Shown here: piece by piece, positions 4,955 to 30,207 of the stretch
How positions within the stretch are numbered: position 1 is the first letter of the stretch
How the letters are laid out: every line of letters starts with the position of its first letter
NCBI GenBank assembly: GCA_024663395.1
Contig: JANFAH010000048.1
Coordinates: 372,001-436,000, forward strand
Direction: 5' to 3'
Origin: Pisolithus tinctorius
Taxonomy: Eukaryota; Basidiomycota; Agaricomycetes; Boletales; Pisolithaceae
Length of the DNA stretch: 64,000 nucleotides
Notes under the pieces: model-generated
Told to the model about the DNA's origin: nothing
What the model saw: the letters and a program-made list of their open reading frames with translations, nothing else
The model's database searches: none
Made by a program: the position numbers and the translations under genes

Positions 4955-6525
4955 AGTCGCTCTGGACTTCCAATGGGTGACATGGGCTTAAGTACATCAT
5001 GTAAATTAATGTTATCCATGAGATCTGTGACTGTCACTTTAAGTGGTGTTGGTGTAACGCTTCTGCTTCTCTTGGTCATCGATGTGTGCATATTGTTACG
5101 ATGAGAATGTTGGGGTTTCAGATGAGCACTTGCACTGATTGTAAGTATCATCACTGTCACTTGTGTGCTCTGCATGGTGATTTCTGCCACCATGGGACAT
5201 GACAGTGTCACACACCAAAGGTGTTGTGGACATGGTTACAGCTGACTCTGCCTAACTCATCAACGAGTTGTGCACAATGCCCAAGCATGCAGATGAAGAC
5301 TAAAGGCCTCATGTGTAGAAAGACTGTTGGACGTTAACAGTCATCCTTTGCACAAGAACAAGTCATCAGTGCTAAAGAGAAAAGAGGAAGCGAGTTAAGC
5401 ACATGTTAAAGGTTTTTAGCACCCGTGTACAGCATTCCGGTTTTTGTCATATCTCCACCATTTCCAAAGATATCAACTCGGTTCGCATGCTTGCTTAAGG
5501 TGCTCAGCCCCACAATTCTTCCTTCCAAGTTTGGAGAGGATCCTCGCACCCTGCATGTTTCTACAGCACTCCATCCATCAGATGCTCATTTTGCTAAGTC
5601 CATCAATCATGGCCACCTCTTCGTCGATCATCTCGCTTGTCTCATTTTCCAGAGACAATGGCTACATATATCTGCCAGGTGTTCCCACCAGCTTCCATCC
5701 TGAAGCCCCCTGGTTCATCCCATCATTGTCAGCCCCATCTTGTCCCATGCAGCTTGGTCAGCATGTTCTCCTTGTCAGTATGACTTCCAGAAGGATGTTC
5801 TTTGGTCACCTCAGGTCTGTCACTCAGCTAGAAAGGTCTTATGTGGTTGTTTCAGTCTCCCCAGTTGATGAAGCATATGGATCATTCCTCCCTGCTCCCT
5901 GCACTGTCTTTGTTCCAGTCTCATCCATCATTCTTCCCACATTGCGACAGCTGCAGTATAATCTACTGTCCTCCAGCCTCCCTGATTGCATTCATGACAA
6001 GTATGACATGCATCTTGCCTTCTTACTGCAGGATCCAGCAGAAGACATCCCCCCTTCTCCTCCTCCTCCATCAGAGCCCCGCCCATGAAGTTTTTGTTAA
6101 CTTCGCTGAGAGGATGGAAGGGTGGGAGACACGATCGCGTATGCTCTCATTGCCCCACAGACCCCCAACACCCTAGCCCCCTTTGACACCTGACTCATGC
6201 CCTTCAATTCTGGAATTAATACTTCCCTGTCTGGAAACACCATCCATCTGTCATGCCATCTTTGGGTCTAGAGATGTCTCCACCGAGATCTAACTTGCAT
6301 CGCCACCCCCTAATGTGATATCAGTGTGCTTACTCAGTTTCTGATTCTGTTTGACTCATTTTGTGATATTTTGACTATCCCTGACTCATTCATTGCCAAT
6401 ACTTACCAATCCTCTTTGCTTGCTTACTTTTCATTTCTTGCTTACTCATCATGATTACTCAGTCCTTACTCATTACTTACCAAGTGTTTGTGCCTTGTTT
6501 GTCACAAGCTGTGTTCCCCCCACAG

Positions 6526-6533
6526 TATATAAA
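6526..6533 (+). promoter_or_regulatory. TATA box of the 5' LTR of element A
   Basis: TATATAAA at 6526-6533 is conserved in the 3' LTR at 18045-18052. The fold-back element inserted at 6548, about 15 bp downstream, so the presumed transcription start is separated from the TATA box in this copy. Confidence 0.5.
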
Positions 6534-6547
6534 CCCCCATGTACTTA

Positions 6548-8120
6548 CAGTGAGGGACAAAAGCGTTGCAATGTTTGTGAGGTGTGAGTTGTTGCTGATG
6601 TAGCTCAGGCTACTCTGCACAGATAATCATGATACCTATACCATTGGAAAGGGGTGACTCTAAGCTTTCCAGAGCACTAAGGTTCAGTCCAAACAAAGCA
6701 ATACATGCTGAGATACACCCTATTCTTTCTGAAAAGTGCATTGCAACGCTTTTGTCCCTGACTGGTGAAATCATGAAATGTGACTTTTTGATGGGATTAA
6801 GGGCATGGAGGATGGGAAAAAATGATTACATAATAAACCACATGATCATCCAGATGATTTGTCAGCATGTAAACAATGACAAACATTGGACTTGTACCAT
6901 TAATCCTCCCTCTTTTACCACAACTCATGAAATCATCTCTCTAGCTCACATGGTCACTTTCTCAAGGAATTCTTATCAAATACTGGTGGCCACCACAGTG
7001 CCATCAGTATAACATGCTCTCAGAACCACCAGTCTCTTAAAAAACCTGCTGTCAGTCATTTCCTGGACTGTTTCTCTCCCCATGCCTGATGTGTTCTGGG
7101 ACTAATCAGTACTTGGAAGGCTTAAAATGTTCTGGAGGTCAATCTGGCACTTCAGAACATGATGTACAAACCAGTCCCCTCTCAACCAATGCATTTTGGG
7201 CACATGGACAGTGGTATGGAAGTTAGGGCAAGACAAAATCCTCTTTACCCCTGGGTGTCATCAGAAGGATATGCTACTGAACTGCCATGGAGCAGAATCC
7301 TGTGCTTCCATCTGGCCCTGAATATTGCCTTTGGTCACATATGACCAAATAATCCTTCTCCAGTCATCTACAGTTCAGATCAGAGCAAGATCTAGTGAAC
7401 CCTCTTATGGTGCTCAGAGCACAAGGAGGTTTTGTCTCACCCCAACTTCCATACCAGTGTTCCTGTGCCTGAAATGCATTGGTTGAGAGGGGACTGGTTT
7501 GTACATCATGTTCTGAAGTGCCAGATTGACCTCCAGAACATTTTAAGCCTTCCAAGTACTGATTAGTCCCAGAACACATCAGGCATGGGGAGAGAAACAG
7601 TCCAGGAAATGACTGACAGCAGGTTTTTTAAGAGACTGGTGGTTCTGAGAGCATGTTATACTGATGGCACTGTGGTGGCCACCAGTATTTGATAAGAATT
7701 CCTTGAGAAAGTGACCATGTGAGCTAGAGAGATGATTTCATGAGTTGTGGTAAAAGAGGGAGGATTAATGGTACAAGTCCAATGTTTGTCATTGTTTACA
7801 TGCTGACAAATCATCTGGATGATCATGTGGTTTATTATGTAATCATTTTTTCCCATCCTCCATGCCCTTAATCCCATCAAAAAGTCACATTTCATGATTT
7901 CACCAGTCAGGGACAAAAGCGTTGCAATGCACTGTTCAGAAAGAATAGGGTGTATCTCAGCATGTATTGCTTTGTTTGGACTGAACCTTAGTGCTCTGGA
8001 AAGCTTAGAGTCACCCCCTTCCAATGGTATAGGTATCATGATTATCTGTGCAGAGTAGCCTGAGCTACATCAGCAACAACTCACACCTCACAAACATTGC
8101 AACGCTTTTGTCCCTCACTG
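6548..8120. mobile_element. Fold-back Tc1/mariner-like element, 1573 bp
   Basis: Begins CAGTGAGGGACAAAAGCGTT and ends with its reverse complement, flanked by TA on both sides (6546-6547 and 8121-8122). The intact 3' LTR shows the empty site with a single TA. CAGT ends and a TA target are hallmarks of Tc1/mariner. Arms of about 690 bp (6548 to about 7240, and about 7428 to 8120) are near-perfect inverted repeats around a spacer of about 180 bp. Each arm starts with a 217-bp unit (6548-6764; 7904-8120) that has its own terminal inverted repeats. A 127-codon frame in each arm is not transposase-like, so the element is non-autonomous. Confidence 0.88.
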
Positions 8121-8618
8121 TAGCTACCAAGAATCAATCCAGAAGTCAGCTCAGCTCAGCATATCTTGTCGTCGACAGTTGAGGCTCATTCGGAAGAGTC
8201 TATCTGTCTTCATTTATATCATTGGTAGTTGAGGCTCCATCAAGGGTCTATCTACCTCTATTCATCATCAGCAGTATCATCAGTGCTTAGTCAGCAACCT
8301 CTTGTTTAGTCATCCATCCACTCCTGCGTAACTTGTCATTGACTTTCGCCAGGAGCACATCTTATCAAAGTCCTTCATCCCAAGTCCTTTTGGCTGAACA
8401 CCTTCACTCTGTTCAGCATCCCCCATCCAATCATCACTTGCTTGTCTACTCCTGCGTAACTCGTCATCGACTTGTGCTAGGAGCACCTGCCATTGAAGTT
8501 TCCCCCTCTTAGGTTTCTGCACTCCAGGTTCCACAGAGGCACACCACCACTCGCTCTACATTTGTCTTTTGTGTTGGTTTTGGTTGGTTTTCACCACCTT
8601 TCCACACTTTGACTCACA

Positions 8619-12790: not shown

Positions 12791-15700
12791 ATGCCTCCTT
12801 CAGTTTCAAGCTTCCAGAGCTCTTTTTATCTTGATGTCTTCTCTTCTTCATTATCTAATCCTTCAAAAGCACCAGATCCCCTTCCTATTCAGAAAACTGA
12901 AAAACAGCTTCATTTTTACTATTCTCTGTCTGACTTTCTTGATTTGTTATGTTTTAGAAAAAGCCTTGCTACAGATATGGAAGACTCAGCTGATGAAACA
13001 GTGCCTGGAGTCTATCCAGAAGATGCTCAGGTCCATCACCAGTTTCCAGAAGACCCCCTTGCATCACTCACACCTCTCACATGTCACCCTCCTGTGTTCA
13101 TTCCCACAAGGAAGCTTACTCAAGAGTGCCTTACCTCCATGAAGATTAACGCTGATGGCTTTCTCTGGCCAGAAGAGGAAAAACTTTTTTCACATGTCAT
13201 GAAGCTTAATGAGCGTGCCTTGGCGTTCGATGAATCGGAGAGAGGAAACTTCCATTCAGACTACTTTTCGCCTTACATCATTCCTGTCCTGCTGCACGAA
13301 CCATGGGAGTTTCATAACATTCCAATTCCCCCTGGCATATGAGAACATGTCATACAGCTTCTTCAGGAGAAGATCACCACTGGTCTCTATGAGCCGGCCC
13401 AATCATCCTATTGCTCCAAATGGTTCTGCATTATGAAAAAGAATGGCAAGATCCATATCGTTCATGATCTACAGCCTCTGAATAAGGTTACCATTCAAGA
13501 TGCTGGTGTTCCACCAATATTGGATGACTTTGTGGAGCCATTTGCCAGTCGTCAATGCTACACAGTCTTTGATCTATTTTCAGGATTTGATGCACACCAG
13601 CTCCATCCCAATAGCTGAGATCTGACATCCTTCATGATGCCTCTTGGCTTACTGTGCCATACTGCCATGCCTCAAGGCTACACCAACTCGCCATTGGAGT
13701 TTCAGAATTGTACAGCTTTCATTCTACAGGATGAAATCCCTCACATTGCCAACGTTTTCATTGACGATCTGCCAGTCAAAGGCCCTGTGACCTGCTATGA
13801 AGATGCCGATGGCAATGCCGAAATGTTACCTGAGAATCCCGGCATATGTCGCTTCATTTGGGAACATGCTGTAGATGTGCATAGAGTCATGCATCAGTTT
13901 GCTCATGCCAGCAGAACGTTTTCTGGCTTGAAATCTCAGATCTGCCAGCCTCGTGTTATCATTCTTGGTCAAGCATGCCATCCTCATGGTCGCTCTCCTG
14001 ATGACCACAAGGTGAAGAAGGTCGTCAACTGGCCAACGCTTGCTACACTGTAGGAAAGAGATTTATGGGAGAGTAGAAGTAGCTGAGTAAAGCAGGGATA
14101 TCTGAGGGGAGTGAGTAAGCCAAAGGGGCTTCTATAGCCTGAGACTGGATCCTGGTAGTCGTCTGAAGGCTTCTGAGGCTGTCTTGGTGCAGGGAACGAC
14201 CTGCTCGAACTCGTCTCTCGTCTCTGGTAACTCGTCTGTTGTTTTTAAAAAAAACTAACTACACCCAGTACTAGGTAGTGCTGACTAAGCGACCAAAATG
14301 CGAAATTCTAAGTACCACTAGCAGAGAAAAACACCTAGAATCAAAACTGAATAAAATGAACGAAATAAAACAATTCCCCTAGTAGGGAAATTACATTCCC
14401 TACAACGCCCAAAGATGTTTGCTCATTCCTAGGTCTCTGTGGTACTGTTCGTGTCTGGATTGCAAACTACTCGCAGTTGGCTCACCCACTCGTTGACCTT
14501 TATTGCAAGAATGCTCCATTCGTTTGGGGTCAGCCCCAGCAAGATGCGTTTGATGCCTTGAAGCTCGCCGTCTCGTCTGCTCCTGCCCTCCACCCCATTG
14601 ACTACTCATCTGACCTGCCAGTCATTCTTTCTGTTGACACCAGTAACATCGCCATTGGATTTGTTCTCTCTCAGTATGATGAAGAAGGTCACAAATGTCC
14701 TGCTCGCTATGGCTCACTCCCCATCAATGAACATGAATCCCGCTACAGTCAGCCTAAGCTCAAGCTCTATGGTCTCTTCAGAGCGCTTCGTCACTACCGT
14801 CTATATCTCTATGGTGTTCATCATCTATGGGTAGAGGTTGATGTGAAGTACATCAAAGGTATGCTCAATGAACCAGATCTTCAACCTAACGCTACTGTCA
14901 ATCGCTGGATCAAGGGTATACTTCTCTTTGACTTTAAGCTCATTCATGTCCCTGCTGTTCGTCACCGAGCCCCAGATGCCCTTTCCAGATGTCAACCTAC
15001 AGAGGAAGAGTATGAAGAAGGTGAAGCTGATGCAGAGGAAGCTGATGGGTGGTTGGAGAGTATTCTTCTTACAGATGCCCATCCGTCTTCAGTTTGCACA
15101 ACTCGTCGATGACTTGCACACGGGTCCACATATGCCATTACCCTCCCATCATTCCTTTCCAATGATACGTCTCAGGATGTCCTTTTACGTCGAGTCCTAC
15201 ACTTCCTTCGTACTACAGAACTTCCCCTGTTCCCTTCCAATACTGCTCGCAAGTGCTTCATTTGCAGATCCCTCCAGTTCTTCCTTTGTGGAGACCAGCT
15301 CTTTAAACATCGAGGTCCCCATCCTCCAGCCAAGGTTGTTTTCGATCCCCATCTCCGTGTCCAGGTCCTTGGTCATGCTCATGAAGAACTCGGTCATTGT
15401 GGAGTCTTTGGAGTCTTTCATACAGTCAGACAGCACTTTTACTGGCCTCAGATGTACCAAGATGTTGCCCATCATGTCCACTCTTGCCATGAATGCCAGA
15501 TCCGAAGCACTCATAAAGCAGAGGTTCCCATCACCATTTCTGCTTCCCCCAGAATCTTTATGAAGGTCTACATTGACGTCATGCTCATGCCCAAAGCACG
15601 TGGTTATTGCTATCTTGTCGCAGCTCGAGATGATCTTTCCCTCACTGCAGAAGGTTGTGCTCTTCATCATGCCAATGCAGACAGTCTCGCTAAGTTCTTC

Positions 15701-19705: not shown

Positions 19706-20607
19706 TGTCATATCCATGACTCTCAGACTCAGTCCCAGTCCAGTCCGGACCCCTAGCCCCTATCTCCGGTCAAGTCTGGTCCTAGCCCAGCCTAGAAAAC
19801 CCAATCCCAGCCCTAGATAACTCAACTCTGGCCTGCATAACTCAAGTCCAGTGTTTTACCCCTATCTCCGGTCCATTTCAGCCTCCCAGCCTTGCGCTGC
19901 TCCACCCCAGTCCTCCCAGGTCTATGTCCAGGTCACCTGGACATAACTCCGGTCTGTTTCCCTTTGTTTGTACTATATTTAGTCTAGCCCATTCATCTGA
20001 CTTTGCTTACTGTACAAATCCTGTGTCTGACCCCAGTATGCCAGTCACCTGGACTTTGGCAATTAGCCTCGGCACAGCCACTATGGCTATCCACTCTCTT
20101 GCTAATCTTCTTGCTAATAGCTTATTAACAAGTCCGGCTCTATGTTCGTTATCCCAGACCGGCCTCATGTATTTAACCCCTGTACATACTTCGTAGCACC
20201 CCCAGTCAGAATATCAACTTAGTATTACCCTCAACTCTGTGTTACCCCTTGATCTACTCTATAGCTAAGGCCGAGCCTTAAGCTATCCCCAGCCCCTGTC
20301 CTGGACCTCTCCCTGGCTTGCATAAGGGTACAGCACATAAGCTGAGACCAAGGGAGGTAGATCCAGCCCTGGACCGGCTTCCCCTTGTGCACACTCCAAC
20401 ACTGGTCGGTTTCCCACACTACCGGTCTTATTCCCGTGCTCCCGGCCTTAAGTCTGGTCCTCCGGACTTAGCCCCTGACCTCCAGCCTTAACTCCGGTCT
20501 AACCGGACTTGGCCCCTGTCTCCCGGCCTTGATTCTGGCCACTCGGACTTGGCCCCTGTCACCCGGTCTTGAAGCCTGGTCACCCGAGGGTAAACCCATA
20601 CTTCACA
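19706..20607 (+). repeat. Solo LTR of family B inside element D
   Basis: 902 bp, TGTCATATCCATGAC...ATACTTCACA, flanked on both sides by a perfect 5-bp duplication CATTC (19701-19705, 20608-20612). Another copy of the same LTR lies in reverse orientation at 21590-30207. No internal region of family B is present in the window. Confidence 0.9.
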
Positions 20608-20775
20608 CATTCCCACTACCTCAGTTTCAGTTTCAGTTTTCTATTGGTATCTAGTGTTCCTTTGATCTCCTACTTACTTTGTTTTCTCTTTCTTGTTTTC
20701 TCTTACTGTACTATAGAAGACCAAGACCAGACACCACCCATGACATTCACAGAGAAAATACTACAAGACCATATG
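20608..20775 (+). other. 3' end of element D internal region
   Basis: Once the family-B solo LTR is removed, this continues the pol end of D and runs up to the D LTR. It is pyrimidine-rich, then holds an Arg/Gln/Asp-coding stretch and the sequence before the LTR. No separate gene is seen. Confidence 0.5.
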
Positions 20776-21349
20776 TGTCATGACTGTGCCCAGACCACCC
20801 CAGACCGGCTCTATCCTGGTCTCGACCGGTCCTGTCCAACCCTTGCCCCAGTCCCAGCCTTGACCCTTCAACCCAGAAATGTGTTAGCTCGTGAGGCACT
20901 GCAAGGCAGTGTCCAGTCGAGTTGTCCCCTCAGTTGGTACCAGGCCAGTGTAACACCCGGCCCAGCCACATGTCCTGCCCCGGTTCCCGGTAATCCCTTG
21001 TTCATAGTCCTTGCTTGATAAGATTCTTTGTAACACTACTTACCAATCATCGCTGTACCAGCGCAGACTGGTCTCCGGTGCTACGTTACACTTAGGTTAC
21101 TTCTAGTATTTAAGCCATAGGATATTCTGTTTAGCCTCAGTCTGAAATCAAACTAGTTCTCGTCTTAACCCGGTCTCTCTTGTCCTCTGTCTTCTGTCTC
21201 TTGACCGGACTATGGCCCATGCAAGGGAATAGCGTTGCGCCCTCAGTCGCTAAGTCCAATAGTCCAAACCCCTTGATATCTTGTATTACCCTCTAACCCC
21301 CGACCGGACTCCAGACCGGCCTTGGACCAGTGAAGACCTGGACTTAACA
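20776..21349 (+). repeat. LTR of family D (3' LTR of element D)
   Basis: About 574 bp, TGTCATGACTGTGCC...CTTAACA. It aligns along most of its length with the LTR at 31215-31738 (shared CAGTCTGAAATCAA and CCCATGCAAGGGAATAGC blocks) but is clearly diverged from it. The start is less certain than the end. Confidence 0.6.
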
Positions 21350-21362
21350 ATATGCTACAAAA

Positions 21363-21589
21363 CTACTCAGCCTCAGCCATAGTTTCATCCTCCCCACCAG
21401 ACTCCTCCTTGTCCTCACCATGGGCCTTCAGCCAGTTGGCCTCCTCATGCAGCTCATCAGAATCAAGCTCAGATGAGCCCAAGTCCAAGGGGGACACCAC
21501 CATCCCAAAGCTGTAGGACTTGTCAAGCGTTGCCTCGAGTGTGTCAGCAATCCTACCAGAGTTCTTGGCCATGGCCTCATGGGCCTCAA
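21363..21589 (-). pseudogene. Zn2Cys6-like protein gene, 3' part
   Basis: This is the C-terminal segment of the gene whose 5' part ends at 30208. Removing the family-B LTR and one copy of the 5-bp duplication joins Leu-Phe-Glu directly to AHEAMAKNSGRIADTLEAT. The rest is acidic (SSELDSDELHEEANWL, then GGEDETMAEAE) and ends at a stop 14 bp from the D-family LTR. The duplication reads TCGAG on one side and TTGAG on the other. Confidence 0.7.
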
Positions 21590-21694
21590 TGTGAAGTACG
21601 GGTTTACCCTCGGGTGACCAGGCTTCAAGACCGGGTGACAGGGGCCAAGTCCGAGTGGCCAGAATCAAGGCTGGGAGACAGGGGCCAAGTCCGG

Positions 21695-22053
21695 TGTAGG
21701 GAATGTAATTTCCCTACTGGGGGAATTGTTTTATTTTGATGATTTTGCTTTATTTTTGTTCTAGCTATCCCTCCGCTACTTGTTCTTAGAATTTCGCATT
21801 TTTGTTGCTTAGTCAGCACTACCTAGTACTGGATGTAGTTACTTTTTTTTTAAAAAGAATAGACCAGTTACCAGAGACAAGAGACGAGTTCGAGCAGGTC
21901 GTTTCCCTGCACCCAGACAGCCCTAGAAGCCTTCAGACAACTATCAGGATCCTTGCCCAGGTTATAGAAGCCCCTTTGGCTTACTCACTCCCCTCAGATA
22001 TCCCTGCTCTCCCCAGCTACTTCTACTCCCTCATAAGTTCTGTTTTTCCTACA
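21695..22053 (+). repeat. LTR 1 of composite C
   Basis: 359 bp, TGTAGGGAATG...TTTCCTACA. It differs from LTR 3 by two G/A substitutions. A primer-binding site (TGGAGCCCACCACGAGGGG) follows 2 bp after it. Confidence 0.92.
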
Positions 22054-22278
22054 ACTGGAGCCCACCACGAGGGGCTTCTGTCTTAGCCTGGCACCCATCC
22101 AAACCATCCCAGATTTTATTTTGCAGTCTCCAGCTTCATTTTCGCAATTTTCAGGCTCGGTTTAGCAGATTTCACCTTTCGGTCTCATTTTTGCAGTCAC
22201 TTTGCTCGCATTTTCGTGTTTTCCCACTCGCGCACACTCACTTATCAAGCATTCACACTCATATAAACTCCCGAAGTC

Positions 22279-23652
22279 ATGCTCGGCCTCAAGATTCCGT
22301 GTCGAGGCTCGCCCGAAGCACCGAGCTTCTCTGGGCGCCCCGAGGACCTTCGATGCTATTTTGATGACATAATCGACTTCTGTGATAGATTCGGCCTCTC
22401 GGACGGGCTCGCGCGCATCAAATTTGCGCTCAAATATGCGCCTTTTGAGTCAGCGGACCTCTGGTCCCACCTCGTGGAGAGTAGCAATGGAGATTGGGCT
22501 CGTTTTACCTTGGAGGTCACTCAGCAGTATCCGGAATTACAGGAGGTCGCTCGAAACAAGTTCTACAAGCTTCGCAAGGTGCTCGCAAGCTCAGACACCA
22601 TCTCGATATCATCCCTGGGCGAATATTATCGCATTTTTCGTCGCTTTTCGCTGTCTCTCGAGAAGGAACATGGGCCGCAACCCCACCTAACATCCGTCTT
22701 CTTTTATGGATTCCCGCCTGAGTTCAGACAAGAGCTTCTTGAGTTTCATGACCCACCGGCTCAAACCTTTACTCTACCTAGTCTTATAGCTGCAGCAGGA
22801 CGGGTTCTTGCACTCGGCAATGGCCTCTGGAAGAGCTGCAAGGTCAACAGTTCATGCGCGCAGCCATCACATGCCTCGGACAGCCACGCACCCCGCCATT
22901 CATATTCGTTTTGCTTTTTCTGTGGACTCTCGGGGCATATTCGGGCAGGTTGCCATTCGTTCAAGTCGTATTTAGCTTCGGGAAAGTGTCTACTCATAAA
23001 CGGCCGCGTTGTTCTACCTACAGGACTGGAAATACCATGCGAAGTTGCCGGACGAACTCTACGAGACCGTCTCGACAACTGGTCTTCGTTGACAAGCCAG
23101 TTCGAGACTCGTAGGGGCTCATCGCTTGCTCGCTCGCTTCCACCCACAGCCGCACCCTCTCGAAGCATGTTCGACACACCATCGCGTGTACCCGCTCGAA
23201 CGAGCATCATGTCTACTCGGTCCCTACCTACTCTCCAGCCCGAGCCAGTAGTACCTGACCCACCAGCCGTTCAGTCTCATCGCTCGTCAGCTGAGCGCTC
23301 TTGTAGCTCACCACATGCACAGCCACAGTCGAGGTGGCCATGTGGCCGAGGCCAGTTGCCCTCGCGTCCTCGTTCACGCTCGCGCTCGCAGACTCGAATG
23401 GGTTCGTACACACGTTCGAAAGATGATTTCATACCAGTCCAGTTGTATGCCCGCAGCTTGAAGCAGCGTCACGCTCGAAGGCGCTCATGTTCATATTCGA
23501 CCAATAGCTCACCCCCTTCTTCCTCGTCATCGTCATCCTCACGCTCGCGCTCTCGTTCACGTTCAAGGAGGGTGCATTCGTACATCCATTCCAAACCGAA
23601 GCGGTTGCGCAGCCACAGTCGCACGCCCCGGCGCTCTCGAAGAGCGCGTTGA
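22279..23652 (+). CDS. Gag of composite C, first copy (zinc knuckle, SR-rich tail)
   Basis: 457 codons from ATG 22279 (first in frame, context AAGTCATGC), intact. The N-terminal 200 residues form a retrotransposon Gag domain rich in aromatic and acidic residues (YFDDIIDFCDRFGL, FYGFPPEFRQELL). A CX2CX4HX4C zinc knuckle (CFFCGLSGHIRAGC) follows at about residues 212-225. The last 100 residues are dominated by Ser-Arg dipeptides, like an RS domain that binds RNA. There is no protease active site and no pol downstream, so particles would need enzymes from another element. GC content and CpG density are high, unlike element A, which suggests a young copy. Confidence 0.85.
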   Translation: MLGLKIPCRGSPEAPSFSGRPEDLRCYFDDIIDFCDRFGLSDGLARIKFALKYAPFESADLWSHLVESSNGDWARFTLEVTQQYPELQEVARNKFYKLRKVLASSDTISISSLGEYYRIFRRFSLSLEKEHGPQPHLTSVFFYGFPPEFRQELLEFHDPPAQTFTLPSLIAAAGRVLALGNGLWKSCKVNSSCAQPSHASDSHAPRHSYSFCFFCGLSGHIRAGCHSFKSYLASGKCLLINGRVVLPTGLEIPCEVAGRTLRDRLDNWSSLTSQFETRRGSSLARSLPPTAAPSRSMFDTPSRVPARTSIMSTRSLPTLQPEPVVPDPPAVQSHRSSAERSCSSPHAQPQSRWPCGRGQLPSRPRSRSRSQTRMGSYTRSKDDFIPVQLYARSLKQRHARRRSCSYSTNSSPPSSSSSSSSRSRSRSRSRRVHSYIHSKPKRLRSHSRTPRRSRRAR

Positions 23653-23989
23653 TGCTGCATGTCGCACAAATTCCGTTATGTTGTTTTTACTTCTTTTGCT
23701 TATGGATCTTACAGTATCTAGTATGGATCTACCTGCGTCGTAATGCGGAATTTTTGGTACATTAGATATGTTTGAATTTTCTTGTTTTTGCCCTTCGTCT
23801 TTTACCCCCCAGGCTCGAGTTCCCCACAGAACACTGAGTAGCATTGCACCTAGCACCTCCCCGCGCTCTACATGACACCTCCCATCCGCGGATACAGTTC
23901 TGACGAAATTACTGCCGACACCGCTCGTCGCTTGTCAAGACAAATGCTGCCTCCCTCGTACCGAGCGCATACCGAGCGTGTATCTCGCT

Positions 23990-24960
23990 CGTTATCACGC
24001 CGTGCCTCTCGCTTTTTGGCAGGCTCGTTCTACTCGACGTTAGCCCTCTGTTGGTACCAAGATCGCTTGCAGGCACCCAGCCGTTGAGGAGATATTCGTG
24101 TTTTTGTGGATAGGTCCATTCTCAGGGTCCTGTAGTCGTATCTCGCTCGTTTCAGCGTCATGCCTCTCGCTTTTCCGCGGACTGGTACTACTCGACCAGA
24201 GCTTTCCAGAGAGCCCAAGAATGTTCCAGCGCGCTCAGTGGTTCTGGAGTTATTTCGCATTTTTGGCGCATGAGGTCTTCTGACTGTAACTCGCGCGAAT
24301 TTGTGCCGCGTCTCTCGCCTTTTGGAATGCAGGTACTACTCGACGAGACCTTTCCAGGGATACCAAGAATGTTTTGGCGCGCGCAGCGGTTTCGGAGGTA
24401 TTCGCATTTTTGTGAGAAGGTCACCTCGAGGTCTTGCCGCAGTAGCTCGCACAGTTCTGCGCCGTTCCTCTCTCTTTTCGGGTCGTTCATCCCTCTCGTT
24501 GAGCCCTTCCTGGGGACACATGCTTTGTAAAATTCCGCACAACCGTTGTCGAGATATCAGCATTTTCGTATCCAGAGGGCTTCGAGCCAGTTTTGCGTAT
24601 AGCTCGGGATCGGCTGATCCAATCGGCTTATCTCCTCGTTCTCCCTGTTCGTCTATGGGTCCTCTACCGTCTCCCGGAGTTTCGTGTTGATTGTCCCAGC
24701 CGTTGTTGTGCGAGTTGACCCCTTCTCCCCTCCCTCGAAGTCCTCTCGTCGTATCTTGCGCACTCGGGCACCATTCCTCTCGCTTTTCTGGAAGTCCATT
24801 CCCCTTGCGTAGCCCTTTCTGGGGACGCCTCTTCTGTCAAATTCCGCACAGCTATCGTCGAGATATGCCCGTTTTCGTGGTTAGAGACACTTTCAGACAA
24901 CTCCTTGGTTATCTCACTCGTTTCTCGACCGGATCTCTCGCTTTTCAGGATCCTGATGCT
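23990..24960 (+). repeat. Degenerate ~155-bp tandem repeat array, first copy
   Basis: Between gag and the next LTR, the core CTCGCTTTT or a close variant recurs near 24007, 24165, 24313, 24467, 24778 and 24938 (a weaker unit near 24630), a spacing of 148-163 bp. Each unit also has a GAGATATTCGCATTTTTGTG-like box. Long open frames through the array are a by-product of the repeat and show no domain. Confidence 0.7.
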
Positions 24961-25283
24961 ACTATTCGACAGCTTCAGAATGGTAGCTTTTCCATCATCG
25001 TCACTGCAGAACTCGTGGCTACATTTGGTTTTTGGTGGATGAGGATACCTTTGGGCGGTTTTGTGGATATCTCAGGATCGGGCGCGTGGATTCTCTCCTT
25101 TCATTTTGCAAGGTCCTCGCTGCATTCCCTTCTGTCATCATATCTTGTATCGCGGCATTCCGAGCACCCATTTTTCGTCAACGAGTCATTGTCTCGCCTC
25201 CTCCCTCGTGACCATGGATTATTGTGTAGTCAAGCCACCTTCGGGTTGAGTGGGGACAGTCAAGATCTCGAGTACCCCTGGGA

Positions 25284-25640
25284 TGTAGGGAATGTAATTT
25301 CCCTACTGGGGGAATTGTTTTATTTTGTTCATTTTATTTAGTTTTGATTCTAGGAGTTTTTTCTGCTAGTGGTACTTAGAATTTCGCATTTTGGTCGCTT
25401 AGTCAGCACTACCTAGTACTGGATGTAGTTAGTCTTCCTTAAAAACAATAGACGAGTTACCCTAAGACGAGAGACGAAATTGAGCAGGTCGTTTCCCTGC
25501 ACCCAGACAGCCTTAGAAGCCATCTGACGACTCCCAGGATCCCTGCACAGGCTATAGAAGCCCCTTTGGCTTACTCACTCCCTTCAGACTCTACTGCCTC
25601 AGCTACTTCTACTCATCCATCTTAAATCTCATTTCCTACA
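25284..25640 (+). repeat. LTR 2 (middle LTR) of composite C, diverged subfamily
   Basis: 357 bp with the same ends as LTRs 1 and 3 but many substitutions and small indels. It is closer to the solo LTR at 14049-14404. A primer-binding site (TGGAGCCCACCGCGAGGGG) follows. Confidence 0.9.
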
Positions 25641-25866
25641 ACTGGAGCCCACCGCGAGGGGCTTCTGTCTTAGCCTGGCACCCATCCCAACCTTCCCAGA
25701 TTCAGTTTGGCAGTCTCCAGCTTCGTTTTCACAATTTCCAGGCTTGTTTTAACAGATTTTCGCCTTTCGACCTCATTTTTGCAGTCTCCTCGCTCGCATT
25801 TTCGTGTTTTCCCACTCGCGCACACTCACATATCAAGTACTTGCATTCATATTACCCACAAACTTC

Positions 25867-27252
25867 ATGCTCAGCTTCAAAATTCCGTGCCGAGGCTCGC
25901 CCGAAGCACCGAGCTTCTCTGGGCGCCCCGAGGACCTTCGAAGCTATTTTGATGACATAATCGACTTCTGTGATGGATTTGGCCTCTCGGACAGGCTCGC
26001 GCGCATCAAATTCGCGCTCAAATATGCGCCTTTTGAGTCAGCTGACCTCTGGTCCCACTTCGTCAGTAGTAGCAAAGGAGATTGGGCTCGTTTTACCTTG
26101 GAAATCACTCAGCAGTACCCAGAATTGGACGAAACAAGTCGAAGTCATGCCGCCGAGCTTGCCAGCCTAAAGGTTGGATTTGCGAGTTCAGATGACGTCT
26201 CAATGTCATCCCTAGGGCAATATTATCGCAATTTCCGTCGAATTTCGTTATCTCTCGAGAACCTACTGGGTCCGTTGCCCCACCTGACCAGTATGTTCAA
26301 GTATGGGTTCCCTCCAGAGTTCAGGCGAGAGGTGCTCGAACACCACGATGCATCAGAGTATTCTGTGCTCAGTCTAATGTCTACAGCTAAGGAGGTCCTG
26401 AGGTCGAGCAGCGGCCTCTGGAAGAGCAGCAAGGTCGACAGTTCGCGCGCGCAGCCACCACATGCCTCAGACAATCGTTCCCCCCGTCGTTCATATTCGT
26501 TCTGCTTCTTCTGCGGACTTTCGGGCCATATTCGGGCAGGTTGCCATTCATTCAAGTTGTATTTAGCTTCGGGAAAGTGTCTACTTGTCGACGGCCGCGT
26601 TGTTCTACCTACAGGTCAGGAAATCCCGCGCGAGGTTGCCGGACGGACTCTACGAGACCGTCTCGACAACTGGTCTTCGTTGACAAGCCAGTTCGAGACT
26701 CGTAGGGGCTCGTTGCTCACTTGCTTGCTTTCGCCCACAGCCGCACCCTCTCGAAGCGTGTTCGACACACCATCGCGCGTACCTGCTCGAACGAGCATCG
26801 TGTATCCTCAGACCCTACCTGCTATCCAGCTCGAGCCAGTAGTACCCGACCCGCCAGCTGTTCAGTCTCGTTGCTCGTCAGCCGAGCGCTCTTGTAGCTC
26901 ACCGCATGCGCAGCCACAGTCGAGGTGGCCATGTGGCCGAGGCCGATCGCCCTCGCGTCCTCGTTCACGCTCGCGCTCACAGACTCGAACGGGTTCATAC
27001 ACACGTTCGAAAGATGATTTCATACCAGTCCAATCGTATGCCTGCAGCTTGAAGCAGCGTCGCGCTCGAAGGCGCTCATGTTCATGTTCGACTAGTAGCT
27101 CACCCCCTTCTTCCTTGTTGTCATCATCATCCTCACGCTCGCGCTCTCGCTCTCGCTCACACTCGAGGAAGGTGACCTCATACATCCGTTCCAAGCAGAA
27201 GCGGTCACGCAGCCGCAGTCGTGCACCCCGGCGCTCTCGAAGAGCGCGTTAA
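25867..27252 (+). CDS. Gag of composite C, second copy
   Basis: 461 codons from ATG 25867, the start aligned with the first copy (MLSFKIPCRGSPE against MLGLKIPCRGSPE). An upstream in-frame non-ATG extension is not needed. Same plan as the first copy: Gag domain, zinc knuckle CFFCGLSGHIRAGC, and Ser-Arg-rich tail ending RRSRRAR. The two proteins are near-identical in the N-terminus and tail. They differ strongly around residues 90-185, so they are different subtypes rather than a recent duplicate. The frame is intact, with no protease or pol. Confidence 0.85.
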   Translation: MLSFKIPCRGSPEAPSFSGRPEDLRSYFDDIIDFCDGFGLSDRLARIKFALKYAPFESADLWSHFVSSSKGDWARFTLEITQQYPELDETSRSHAAELASLKVGFASSDDVSMSSLGQYYRNFRRISLSLENLLGPLPHLTSMFKYGFPPEFRREVLEHHDASEYSVLSLMSTAKEVLRSSSGLWKSSKVDSSRAQPPHASDNRSPRRSYSFCFFCGLSGHIRAGCHSFKLYLASGKCLLVDGRVVLPTGQEIPREVAGRTLRDRLDNWSSLTSQFETRRGSLLTCLLSPTAAPSRSVFDTPSRVPARTSIVYPQTLPAIQLEPVVPDPPAVQSRCSSAERSCSSPHAQPQSRWPCGRGRSPSRPRSRSRSQTRTGSYTRSKDDFIPVQSYACSLKQRRARRRSCSCSTSSSPPSSLLSSSSSRSRSRSRSHSRKVTSYIRSKQKRSRSRSRAPRRSRRAR

Positions 27253-27589
27253 CGCTGCGTGTTGCACGAATTCCGTTATGTTGTTTTTTACTTCTTTTGC
27301 TTATGGATCTTACAGTATCTAGTATGGATCTACCTACATCGTAATGCGGAATTTTTGGTACATTAGATATGTTTGAATTTTCTTGTTTTGCCCTTCATCT
27401 TTTACCCCCCAGGCTCGAGTTCCCTGCAGAACGCCATTTCGCGGCGCACCTAGCGCCTTCCCGCGCTCTACACAACACCTCACATCCACGGATACAGTTC
27501 TGATGAAATTACTGCCAACACCGCTCGTCGCTTGTCAAGATAAATGCTACCTCCCTTGTACCAAGCGCGTACCAAGCGCGTATCTCGCT

Positions 27590-28720
27590 CGTTATCGCGC
27601 CGTGCCTCTCGCTTTTTGGCAGGCTCGTACTACTCGACGTTAGCTCTCTGTTGGTACCAAGCTCGCTTGCATGTGCCCAGCCATTAAGGAGATATTCGCA
27701 TTTTTGTGGATAGGTCCATTCTCAGGGTCCTGTGGTCGTATCTCACTCGTTTTCGCGTCGCGCCTCTCGCTTTTTGGGAGGATTGTAGTCCATGACGAAT
27801 GCTCCATGTTGATATCTGGGTTGTTCTGATAGGTCCAGTAGCTCCAGAGATATTTGCGTTTTTGTGCGAAGGCCATCCTCAAGGTCATGCTGCAGTAGCT
27901 TGCGCAGTTCTGCGCCGTTCCTCTCGCTTTCCGGGTCGTTCATCCCTCTCGCTGAACCCTTCCTGGGGACACCTGCTTTGTAAAATTCCGCGCAACCGTT
28001 GTCGAGATATCAGCATTTTCGTATCCAGAGGGCTTCGAGCCAGTTTCGCGTATAACTCGGGATCGGCTGGTCCAATCGGCGTGTTTCCTCGTTCTCCGTG
28101 TTCGTCTGCAAATCCTCTACCGTCTCCCGGAGTTTCGTGTTGATCGTCCCAGCCGTTGTCGTGCAAGTCAAGCCCTTCTCCCCACCCTCGAAGTCCTCTC
28201 GTCGTATCTCGCGCACTCGGGCACCGTTCCTCTCGCTTTTCTGGCAGTCCATTCCCCTCGCATAGCCCTCTCTGGGGACACTACTTTTGTCAAATTCCAC
28301 GCAGCCGTCGTCGAGATACACTCATTTTTGTGGTTTGAGGTGCTTTTGGACAACTTTGCGGATATCTCAGGCCCGCGTAGACAGATTCCCTCCATCTCTT
28401 TTTCAGCGTGTTCGCTATGTTCCCCTCCATCGTTACTGGCAGTTTCGCCGCATCCCGAGCGTCCGTCGTTGGTCTGCAGTGTTCCCTTTTCAGTCAACAA
28501 CGCTGTATGCATGATAACTCGCCCATTTCACCGCCGGACCTCTCGCTTTTCGGGAACTTTGTACTACTCGTCGAGGGCTTTCTGACGGTATATCATACAT
28601 CGCTCTCGCTGCTGCCGTTGTGGAGATACACGCCATTTTTGTTGTTGCAGACACCTTAGGACGACTCTGCGAGTATCTTGCCCGTTTCTCGACCGGATCT
28701 CTCGCTTTTCGGGATCCTGA
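27590..28720 (+). repeat. Degenerate ~155-bp tandem repeat array, second copy
   Basis: The CTCGCTTT core recurs near 27607, 27764, 27922, 28231, 28541 and 28698. The gaps are 155-158 bp or twice that, implying eight units of which two lack a clear core. Parts are nearly identical to the first array (for example GATATCAGCATTTTCGTATC). Confidence 0.7.
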
Positions 28721-29047
28721 TGCTACTGTTCGATAGCTTCAGAACGGTACCTTTTCCGTCGTCGTCGCTGCGGAACTCATGGCTATGTTTGGTTTTTGGT
28801 GAATGAGGATACCTTTGGGCGGTTTTGTGGATATCTCAGGATCGGGCGCGTGGATTCTCTCCTCTCATTTTGCAAGGTCCTGGCTGCATTCCCTTCTGTC
28901 ATCATATCATGTATCGCGGCATTCCGAGCACCCATTTTTCGTCAACGAGTCGTTGTCTCGCCTCTTCCCTCGTGACCATGGATTATTGTGTAGTCAAGCC
29001 GCCTTCGTGTTGACTGGGGACAGTCAAGATCTTGAGTACCCCTGGGA

Positions 29048-29406
29048 TGTAGGGAATGTAATTTCCCTACTGGGGGAATTGTTTTATTTTGATGATTTTG
29101 CTTTATTTTTGTTCTAGCTATCCCTCCGCTACTTGTTCTTAGAATTTCGCATTTTTGTTGCTTAGTCAGCACTACCTAGTACTGGATGTAGTTACTTTTT
29201 TTTTAAAAAGAATAGACCAGTTACCAGAGACAAGAGACGAGTTCAAGCAGGTCGTTTCCCTGCACCCAGACAACCCTAGAAGCCTTCAGACAACTATCAG
29301 GATCCTTGCCCAGGTTATAGAAGCCCCTTTGGCTTACTCACTCCCCTCAGATATCCCTGCTCTCCCCAGCTACTTCTACTCCCTCATAAGTTCTGTTTTT
29401 CCTACA
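29048..29406 (+). repeat. LTR 3 of composite C
   Basis: 359 bp, nearly identical to LTR 1. It is preceded by the same pre-LTR sequence as LTR 2 (GAGTACCCCTGGGA), the likely polypurine-tract region. It is followed by CTGG, which pairs with CCGG left of LTR 1. Confidence 0.92.
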
Positions 29407-30207
29407 CTGGTTAGACCGGAGTTAAGGCTGGAGGTCAGGGGCTAAGTCTGGAGGACCGGACTTAAGGCCGGGGGCGTGGGAACAAGACCGGTAGCATGGG
29501 AAACCGACTGGTCTTGGGGTGCGCACAGGGGGAAGCCAGTCTGGGGTTGGATCTACCTCCCTTGGTCTCAGCTTATGTGCTGTACCCTTATGCAAGCCAG
29601 GGAGAGGTCCAGGACAGGGGCCAGGGACAGCTTAAGGCTTGGCCTTAGCTATAGAGTAGTCTCGGGGTGTAGTATGGAGTTGAGGGTAATACTAAGTTGA
29701 TATTCTGACTGAGGGTGCTACGAAGTATGTACAGGGGTTAAATACATGAGGCCGGTCTGGAGTAAAGAACATGAAGCTGGACTTGTTGATAAGCTATTAG
29801 AAAGATGATTAGCAAGAGGAGGACAGCCATAGTGGCTGTGCCAAGGCTAATAGCTAAAGTCCGGGTGACCGGCATACTGGGGTCAGACACAGGATTTGTA
29901 CAGTAAGCAAACTCAGATGAATGGGCTAGACTAAATATAGTACAAACAAAGGGAAACAGACCAGAGTTATGTCCGAGTGACCCGGACATAGACCTGGGAG
30001 GACCGGGGTGGAGCAGCACAAGGCTGGGAGGCCGAAACGGACCGGAGATAGGGGTAAAATACCGGACTTGACTTATGCAGGCCGGAGTTGAGTTATCTAG
30101 GGCCGGGATTGGGTTTTCTAGGCTGGACTAGGACCGGAGTTGACCGGAGTTAGGGGCTAGGGGTCCAGACTGGGCTGAGTCCGAGTCCAAGAGTCATGGA
30201 TATGACA

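Follow-up and report, generated by a model that had tools for sequence, protein, structure and literature searches.

A Tandem LTR Element of Pisolithus tinctorius, Probably Formed by Template Switching between Two RNAs

Introduction

Tandem long terminal repeat (LTR) elements, in which an internal LTR is common to two units, are frequent in plants, and their origin is still debated between DNA recombination and reverse transcription; the study documenting them leaves the mechanism open, both routes being possible (Morales-Diaz 2025, PMC11899658). In Triticeae, rice, and maize, LTR complexes have been ascribed to template switching, in a model in which synthesis jumps from the R region of one RNA to that of another (Sabot and Schulman 2007, PMC1950507), and another study reports high recombination rates within an LTR family during bursts (Sanchez et al., PMC5668417). 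Here we analyze a tandem of the fungus Pisolithus tinctorius, located at positions 21695–29406 of a stretch of 64,000 nucleotides, hereafter the window (C48:372001–436000, from a genome of 92.5 Mb in 221 contigs). This element of ~7.7 kb has the layout LTR-gag-LTR-gag-LTR and was probably made by a template switch between two single RNAs. The structure is of a known kind; in this genome it is frequent and partly traceable.

In yeast, Ty5 reportedly forms tandem elements via its LTR by homologous recombination of complementary DNA (cDNA), to judge from the title of work by Ke and Voytas dated 1997, whereas the evidence from one Pisolithus tandem favors switches during reverse transcription. The non-autonomous plant LTR elements known as TR-GAG and LARD have LTRs, a gag-like open reading frame (ORF), and no pol; the present family resembles them by description and is fungal. 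None of the titles listed in searches of the open literature names this Pisolithus family, the lists being short (12 of 5,768 papers in one case). Copies of this apparently gag-only family are numerous and strongly diverged and include six or more independent tandems, which provides enough markers for tracing switch points; one tandem (L042, on contig C80) already reveals such points inside an LTR.

Structure of the Tandem and Its Target Site

The outer LTRs of the tandem, LTR1 and LTR3, are identical at 357 of 359 aligned positions, both differences being a G in LTR1 and an A in LTR3. The middle LTR2 agrees with LTR1 at 306 of 348 aligned positions (~88% identity) and with LTR3 at 304 of 348, with 19 gap columns in each case, and the internal regions of units A and B are 89.3% identical over aligned columns. 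An earlier note, made from the sequence of the window, had described two differences in 359 positions between the outer LTRs, a diverged middle LTR, and one 4-bp duplication (CCGG/CTGG) around the whole 7.7 kb; all of this holds. The features are as follows.

19706..20607, minus strand: intact inverted-repeat arm showing the empty site, the element being in the opposite arm (arm alignment)
21691..21694, plus strand: left target-site duplication CCGG (single CCGG in the intact arm)
21695..22053, plus strand: LTR1, 359 bp (LTR alignment)
22056..22072, plus strand: stretch like a primer-binding site (PBS), beginning TGG, 2 bases past LTR1 (read from the sequence; the LTR-end/PBS pattern is common in the genome)
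22279..23652, plus strand: gag-like ORF 1, 457 amino acids (aa), one CCHC knuckle (open frame, protein relatives)
23653..25284, plus strand: 3' part of unit A, ending CCCCTGGGA at the LTR, with degenerate repeats of ~150 bp (no known domain found)
25285..25640, plus strand: LTR2, the internal LTR, 356 bp (LTR alignment)
25643..25659, plus strand: second PBS-like stretch (read from the sequence)
25804..27252, plus strand: gag-like ORF 2, 482 aa from GTG (461 aa from ATG at 25867), one CCHC knuckle (open frame)
27253..29047, plus strand: 3' part of unit B, ending CCCCTGGGA (two frames scanned)
29048..29406, plus strand: LTR3, 359 bp, 2 differences from LTR1 (LTR alignment)
29407..29410, plus strand: right target-site duplication CTGG (apparent C>T change at CpG)

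The intact arm (19706–20607) aligns with the joined flanks of the element over 904 columns at 91.5% identity and has one CCGG at the insertion point. Because this empty site contains a single CCGG, the flanks are directly contiguous and the 7.7 kb lies within one target site; the mismatch between CCGG and CTGG reads as a C>T change at CpG in one copy of the duplication. The single duplication and the empty site reject two neighboring insertions and, together with the matching outer LTRs, bear out the earlier view that the piece was integrated once as a whole. A search with the left flank for an empty allele gave 44 matches, most spanning only the part between the arms, and none was recognized as an allele. 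The inverted repeat that holds the element extends over 19706–30207, with arms of ~900 bp; what lies between them is repeated many times in the genome, and the arm end adjoining the element is found at few of the listed places.

The tandem thus has what Sabot and Schulman (2007) describe for template-switching complexes: three LTRs, one of them internal, two complete cores, highly similar outer LTRs, and one target-site duplication around the whole (here with one CpG transition, the empty site reading CCGG). A recombinant complex made by two adjacent insertions would lack a common duplication and have unlike outer LTRs, which is not the case here. The complexes of Sabot and Schulman (2007) involve Angela-like elements (Copia), Opie of maize, and Squiq of rice, whereas the present ones belong to a fungal and apparently gag-only family. 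The plant tandems of PMC11899658 likewise have units joined by an internal LTR and a single target duplication; they are mostly gypsy-related (82% of 28 selected) and have conserved protein domains, unlike the family studied here.

Target-site duplications were compared in 30 copies of the family, 24 singles and 6 tandems. In 27 of them a central CG is present in at least one copy of the duplication, compared with a CG rate of 4.1% in the window, and the other three have CA or TG. The two duplications are identical in 20 copies and one base apart in 10, nine of these ten mismatches being transitions at the central CG. The family shows a strong CpG target preference. All six tandems are flanked by a 4-bp duplication (identical in four, one CpG transition apart in two); tandems and singles share the same target type, which is expected if the same machinery inserted both.

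Other Tandems in the Genome

Using the internal junction (24900–26000) as a query, with the best 40 of 400 candidates scored, we obtained a list of 41 matches, among which are four further full-length tandem junctions: L039, L040, and L041 on C2, and L042 on C80. A fifth further tandem, on C10, was recognized by its LTR-end spacing. The other copies are not all single units; had they been, the earlier note would have counted this against its view. The 3' junction pattern occurs at 139 places with at most one mismatch; the 95 exact ones include six same-strand neighbor pairs, which are the known tandems: C2 has three, and C10, C48, and C80 have a single one. Counting each tandem once, the elements whose 3' junction is exact number ~89, at least six of them tandems; the figure of 89 may be too high in view of possible duplicate contigs (C71/C161, C26/C139, C17/C181, and C47/C150, with paired equal-score matches). 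By comparison, Table 1 of Sabot and Schulman (2007) gives two template-switching complexes against 400 LTR insertions, the sequence surveyed being ~7 Mb from Triticeae. A seventh pair, on C27, has a spacing of 17.7 kb and lies outside the count of six.

Copies were chosen mostly by likeness to the window, not randomly. The places listed were 95 exact and five one-mismatch ones of the 139 for the 3' junction, and 100 of the 433 at which the LTR-end/PBS pattern occurs in the whole genome with at most two mismatches. LTR-end/PBS sites so outnumber 3' junctions (433 vs 139) that many of them may be decayed copies, or may belong to relatives that end differently at 3'. Excluded before the counts were L047, L050, and C2:1555k/L026, with a missing or truncated 5' LTR; L058/L060, with a 3' LTR truncated beside an inverted copy; and the C9 pair L079/L080, whose two stretches do not align. 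In L058 (2547–3250) two inverted family copies abut, the first with the truncated 3' LTR.

In four of the six tandems the outer LTRs are nearly identical and the middle one is different. Besides the window, this is seen in L041 (outer pair 349/349, LTR1 to middle 328/342), L042 (355/358 vs 322/348), and the C10 tandem (342/351, its nine differences all transitions, vs 288/339). In the last, the second and third LTRs lie 13.4 kb apart, unit 2 being interrupted by a piece with a frame that, from the look of the sequence, we take to be a Helitron-like helicase (L059, 5532–8700); a frame that we presume to be of the same kind lies in a single copy (L043, 2824–4053).

The arrangement recurs with different partners. 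Within five tandems the two internal regions are 80.9–89.4% identical, and across these five the highest internal identity is 91.9%; unit A of the C10 tandem is at most 86.1% identical to the other ten tandem units. Short patches of up to 99% identity are common to different tandems, but no whole unit is common to any two of the six, so that no tandem is a copy of another and a copied dimer as their common source can be rejected. Relative to the other copies compared, the tandems are strongly mosaic, including L041 with its identical outer LTRs, an outcome expected of template switching that precedes integration.

A Tandem with a Traceable Second Unit

From position 184 of LTR2, through unit B, to position 139 of LTR3, L042 matches the element at C2:5299–5303k with six differences in ~3.57 kb; all six lie in 5502–8186, LTR2 after 4612 and the 737 columns that open the internal region being free of any. 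On either side of this span the match ends: all 17 differences between LTR2 and the 5' LTR of the C2:5299–5303k element precede position 184, and the remainder of LTR3 after position 139 has 36 differences. The matching parts are the 3' half of the 5' LTR, the internal region, and the U3 (unique 3') region of the 3' LTR, presumably the span of one transcript from R to U3; outside them, the two LTRs of the C2:5299–5303k element are unlike each other. The preceding sequence can also be followed: over the final 1.3 kb of unit A and as far as position 164 of LTR2, it is that of another element, L055, apart from 14 differences, and LTR3 is identical to LTR1 from position 83 onward. Both switches are thus located within LTRs, at 83–139 in LTR3 and at 164–184 in LTR2.

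As read from these sequences, the order appears to be U3(A)-U5(B) in the middle LTR of L042 and U3(B)-U5(A) in LTR3, where U5 is the unique 5' region; this is what a jump between R regions predicts. Unit B likewise appears to have moved as an RNA-like span, whichever locus came first. Chimeric LTRs also belong to the model of Sabot and Schulman (2007), beyond whose complexes we have here one case in which a relative could be traced and the switches fall within LTRs. In L042 the chimeras come with one anomaly, considered below, and with a position of R that we infer; in the window tandem such chimeras are not traceable.

Single Copies with Mismatched LTRs

LTRs were compared in 29 elements, 24 singles and five tandems; the C10 tandem, found later, was left out. 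Both LTRs were read in the 24 singles, 17 of which have matching pairs (0–13 events) and seven clearly mismatched ones (16–51 events). In these seven the duplications are identical in five and have one mismatch in two. The first LTR differences are at positions 268, 198, 170, 111, 56, 47, and 23, and each pair is either the same and then different, or different nearly throughout. In four of the seven, the two LTRs are identical over their 5' part, the differences beginning at 268, 198, 170, and 111. Among LTR pairs between elements with at least ten events beyond position 183, only 10 of 1180 have none in 1–137. The outer pair of L042 has the reverse order, with differences only at 25, 72, and 82.

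The mismatched singles could derive from collapse of heterodimers by LTR–LTR recombination, or from a 5' LTR that was completed via R. The start points of the differences suit a collapse at varied points, seven pairs being too few for a polarity test. With mismatched pairs in 7 of 24 singles, LTR divergence calls for caution as a measure of age for such copies. A broader reading, which we put forward tentatively and hold to be somewhat less than an even chance, is that RNA-to-RNA jumps in the LTR are routine in this family, several percent of copies being one-round heterodimers, and that LTR–LTR collapse yields singles with matching duplications and mismatched LTRs. If so, LTR divergence is no dating tool for such elements, and tracing of parents could settle the old dispute over the origin of tandem LTR elements.

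Origin of the Tandem

We consider that the window tandem is probably a heterodimeric insertion made by a template switch between two single RNAs. These RNAs, A and B, would have differed from each other and been packaged and reverse transcribed together. Minus-strand synthesis would begin at the 5' end of A and move to the 3' R of B; B would be copied, PBS and U5 included, as far as its 5' R, from which a jump to the 3' R of A would allow A to be copied in turn. The predicted product, U3(B)-R-U5(A), intA, U3(A)-R-U5(B), intB, U3(B)-R-U5(A), has outer LTRs that are identical to each other but not to the middle one, and would have been integrated once, with a 4-bp duplication. The window tandem would have formed in the same way as L042. 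Because a single round with two single RNAs joined at R would yield this structure too, an RNA already holding both units is unnecessary, contrary to the claim of the earlier note that the template must have contained both gag genes and the LTR between them.

Several observations weigh against this reading. In L042, LTR1 has the states of LTR2 and L055, not those of LTR3, at positions 25, 72, and 82, which needs a further switch or conversion, and copying between L042 and the C2:5299–5303k element could run either way. Two tandems depart from the pattern of matching outer LTRs: in L040 the outer LTRs agree at 326/344 and with the middle one at 327/348 and 324/347, the three agreeing up to position 158 and each differing from the others beyond it, and in L039 LTR1 equals LTR2 (355/355) while LTR3 is of another type, damaged, with an A-rich stretch. 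Searches with the four unit ends of the window revealed no close parents (best other matches 92% for A 5', 98% for A 3', 92% for B 5', and 96% for B 3'), so that A and B as whole RNAs are hypothetical. Finally, the 7 of 24 singles with mismatched LTRs despite matching or nearly matching duplications imply that another kind of LTR exchange occurs too.

Such exchange, also suggested by L039 and L040, is common enough to lend some weight to a DNA-based alternative, in which a one-LTR circle or linear cDNA of B recombined by homology, as is reported for yeast Ty5, into a single element A already resident at the site. A crossover in the internal region, for which >3 kb of 89% homology is offered, would leave the outer LTRs A's and the middle LTR B's, an A-B-A order with one duplication, and the differences at 25, 72, and 82 between LTR1 and LTR3 of L042 are the expected residue of a crossover in the last LTR. 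The unit traced in L042 is nevertheless the full span from LTR half to U3, and for this tandem a crossover inside the internal region is rejected by the location of both switches in LTRs. A single crossover in an LTR would switch LTR2 where LTR3 does (83–139), whereas LTR2 switches at 164–184; moreover, LTR2 at 98, 105, and 114 matches neither LTR1 nor either LTR of the C2:5299–5303k element, although from 137 to 156 it agrees with the 3' LTR of the latter. For the window tandem, we regard recombination into a resident element as the less likely course, though a plausible one.

The version favored by the earlier note, in which an older tandem locus gave an RNA with both units that was then reverse transcribed and inserted here, seems to us distinctly improbable. 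It too regenerates identical outer LTRs, and structure alone cannot separate it from a switch between single RNAs. However, no second copy of the window unit pair was found, the other five tandems being without window units. The other copies of the arrangement that the note had suggested seeking do exist, with different flanks, but their internal junctions are not the same: the query 24900–26000 has no other full-length match above 89% among the 41 listed, with the best 40 of 400 candidates scored. No copied dimer RNA is seen in the six tandems, and the L042 unit matches the presumed R-to-U3 span of a separate element. Least probable of all, and in our opinion barely credible, is an unequal exchange, or neighboring insertions, followed by gene conversion of the outer LTRs. 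LTR exchange does occur in the family, yet this scenario must contend with one duplication and an exact empty site, with an outer-match pattern in four of six tandems that chance conversion does not favor, and with an internal divergence of ~11%, too large for a recent unequal crossover.

The gag-Like Frames and Neighboring Features

The two gag-like ORFs, which follow LTR1 and LTR2, respectively, are uninterrupted. We assigned them to gag by their position, their CCHC knuckle, and the source names of their relatives, which include CCHC-type and retrotransposon gag. Scoring of the 7992 candidate proteins sharing most words gave 33 relatives of ORF 1, all Pisolithus-named, the closest listed being from P. 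tinctorius (90% identity over 89% of the query). A Pfam scan gave no family match for either gag or for four downstream frames, two per unit, and no pol was seen among these frames. A PDB sequence search returned six matches, none credible (E-value 0.12 or worse), and the fold model of gag 1 is too weak for use (mean predicted local distance difference test score, pLDDT, of 39). With LTRs and a gag-like ORF and no pol detected, the window element is most simply classified, from its sequence, as a non-autonomous gag-only LTR element.

The non-coding 3' halves of both units contain degenerate direct repeats of ~100–150 bp, at 23980–24880 and 27580–28770. Elsewhere in the window, a solo LTR of the same family lies on the minus strand at 14049–14404, flanked by GCGT/GTGT.

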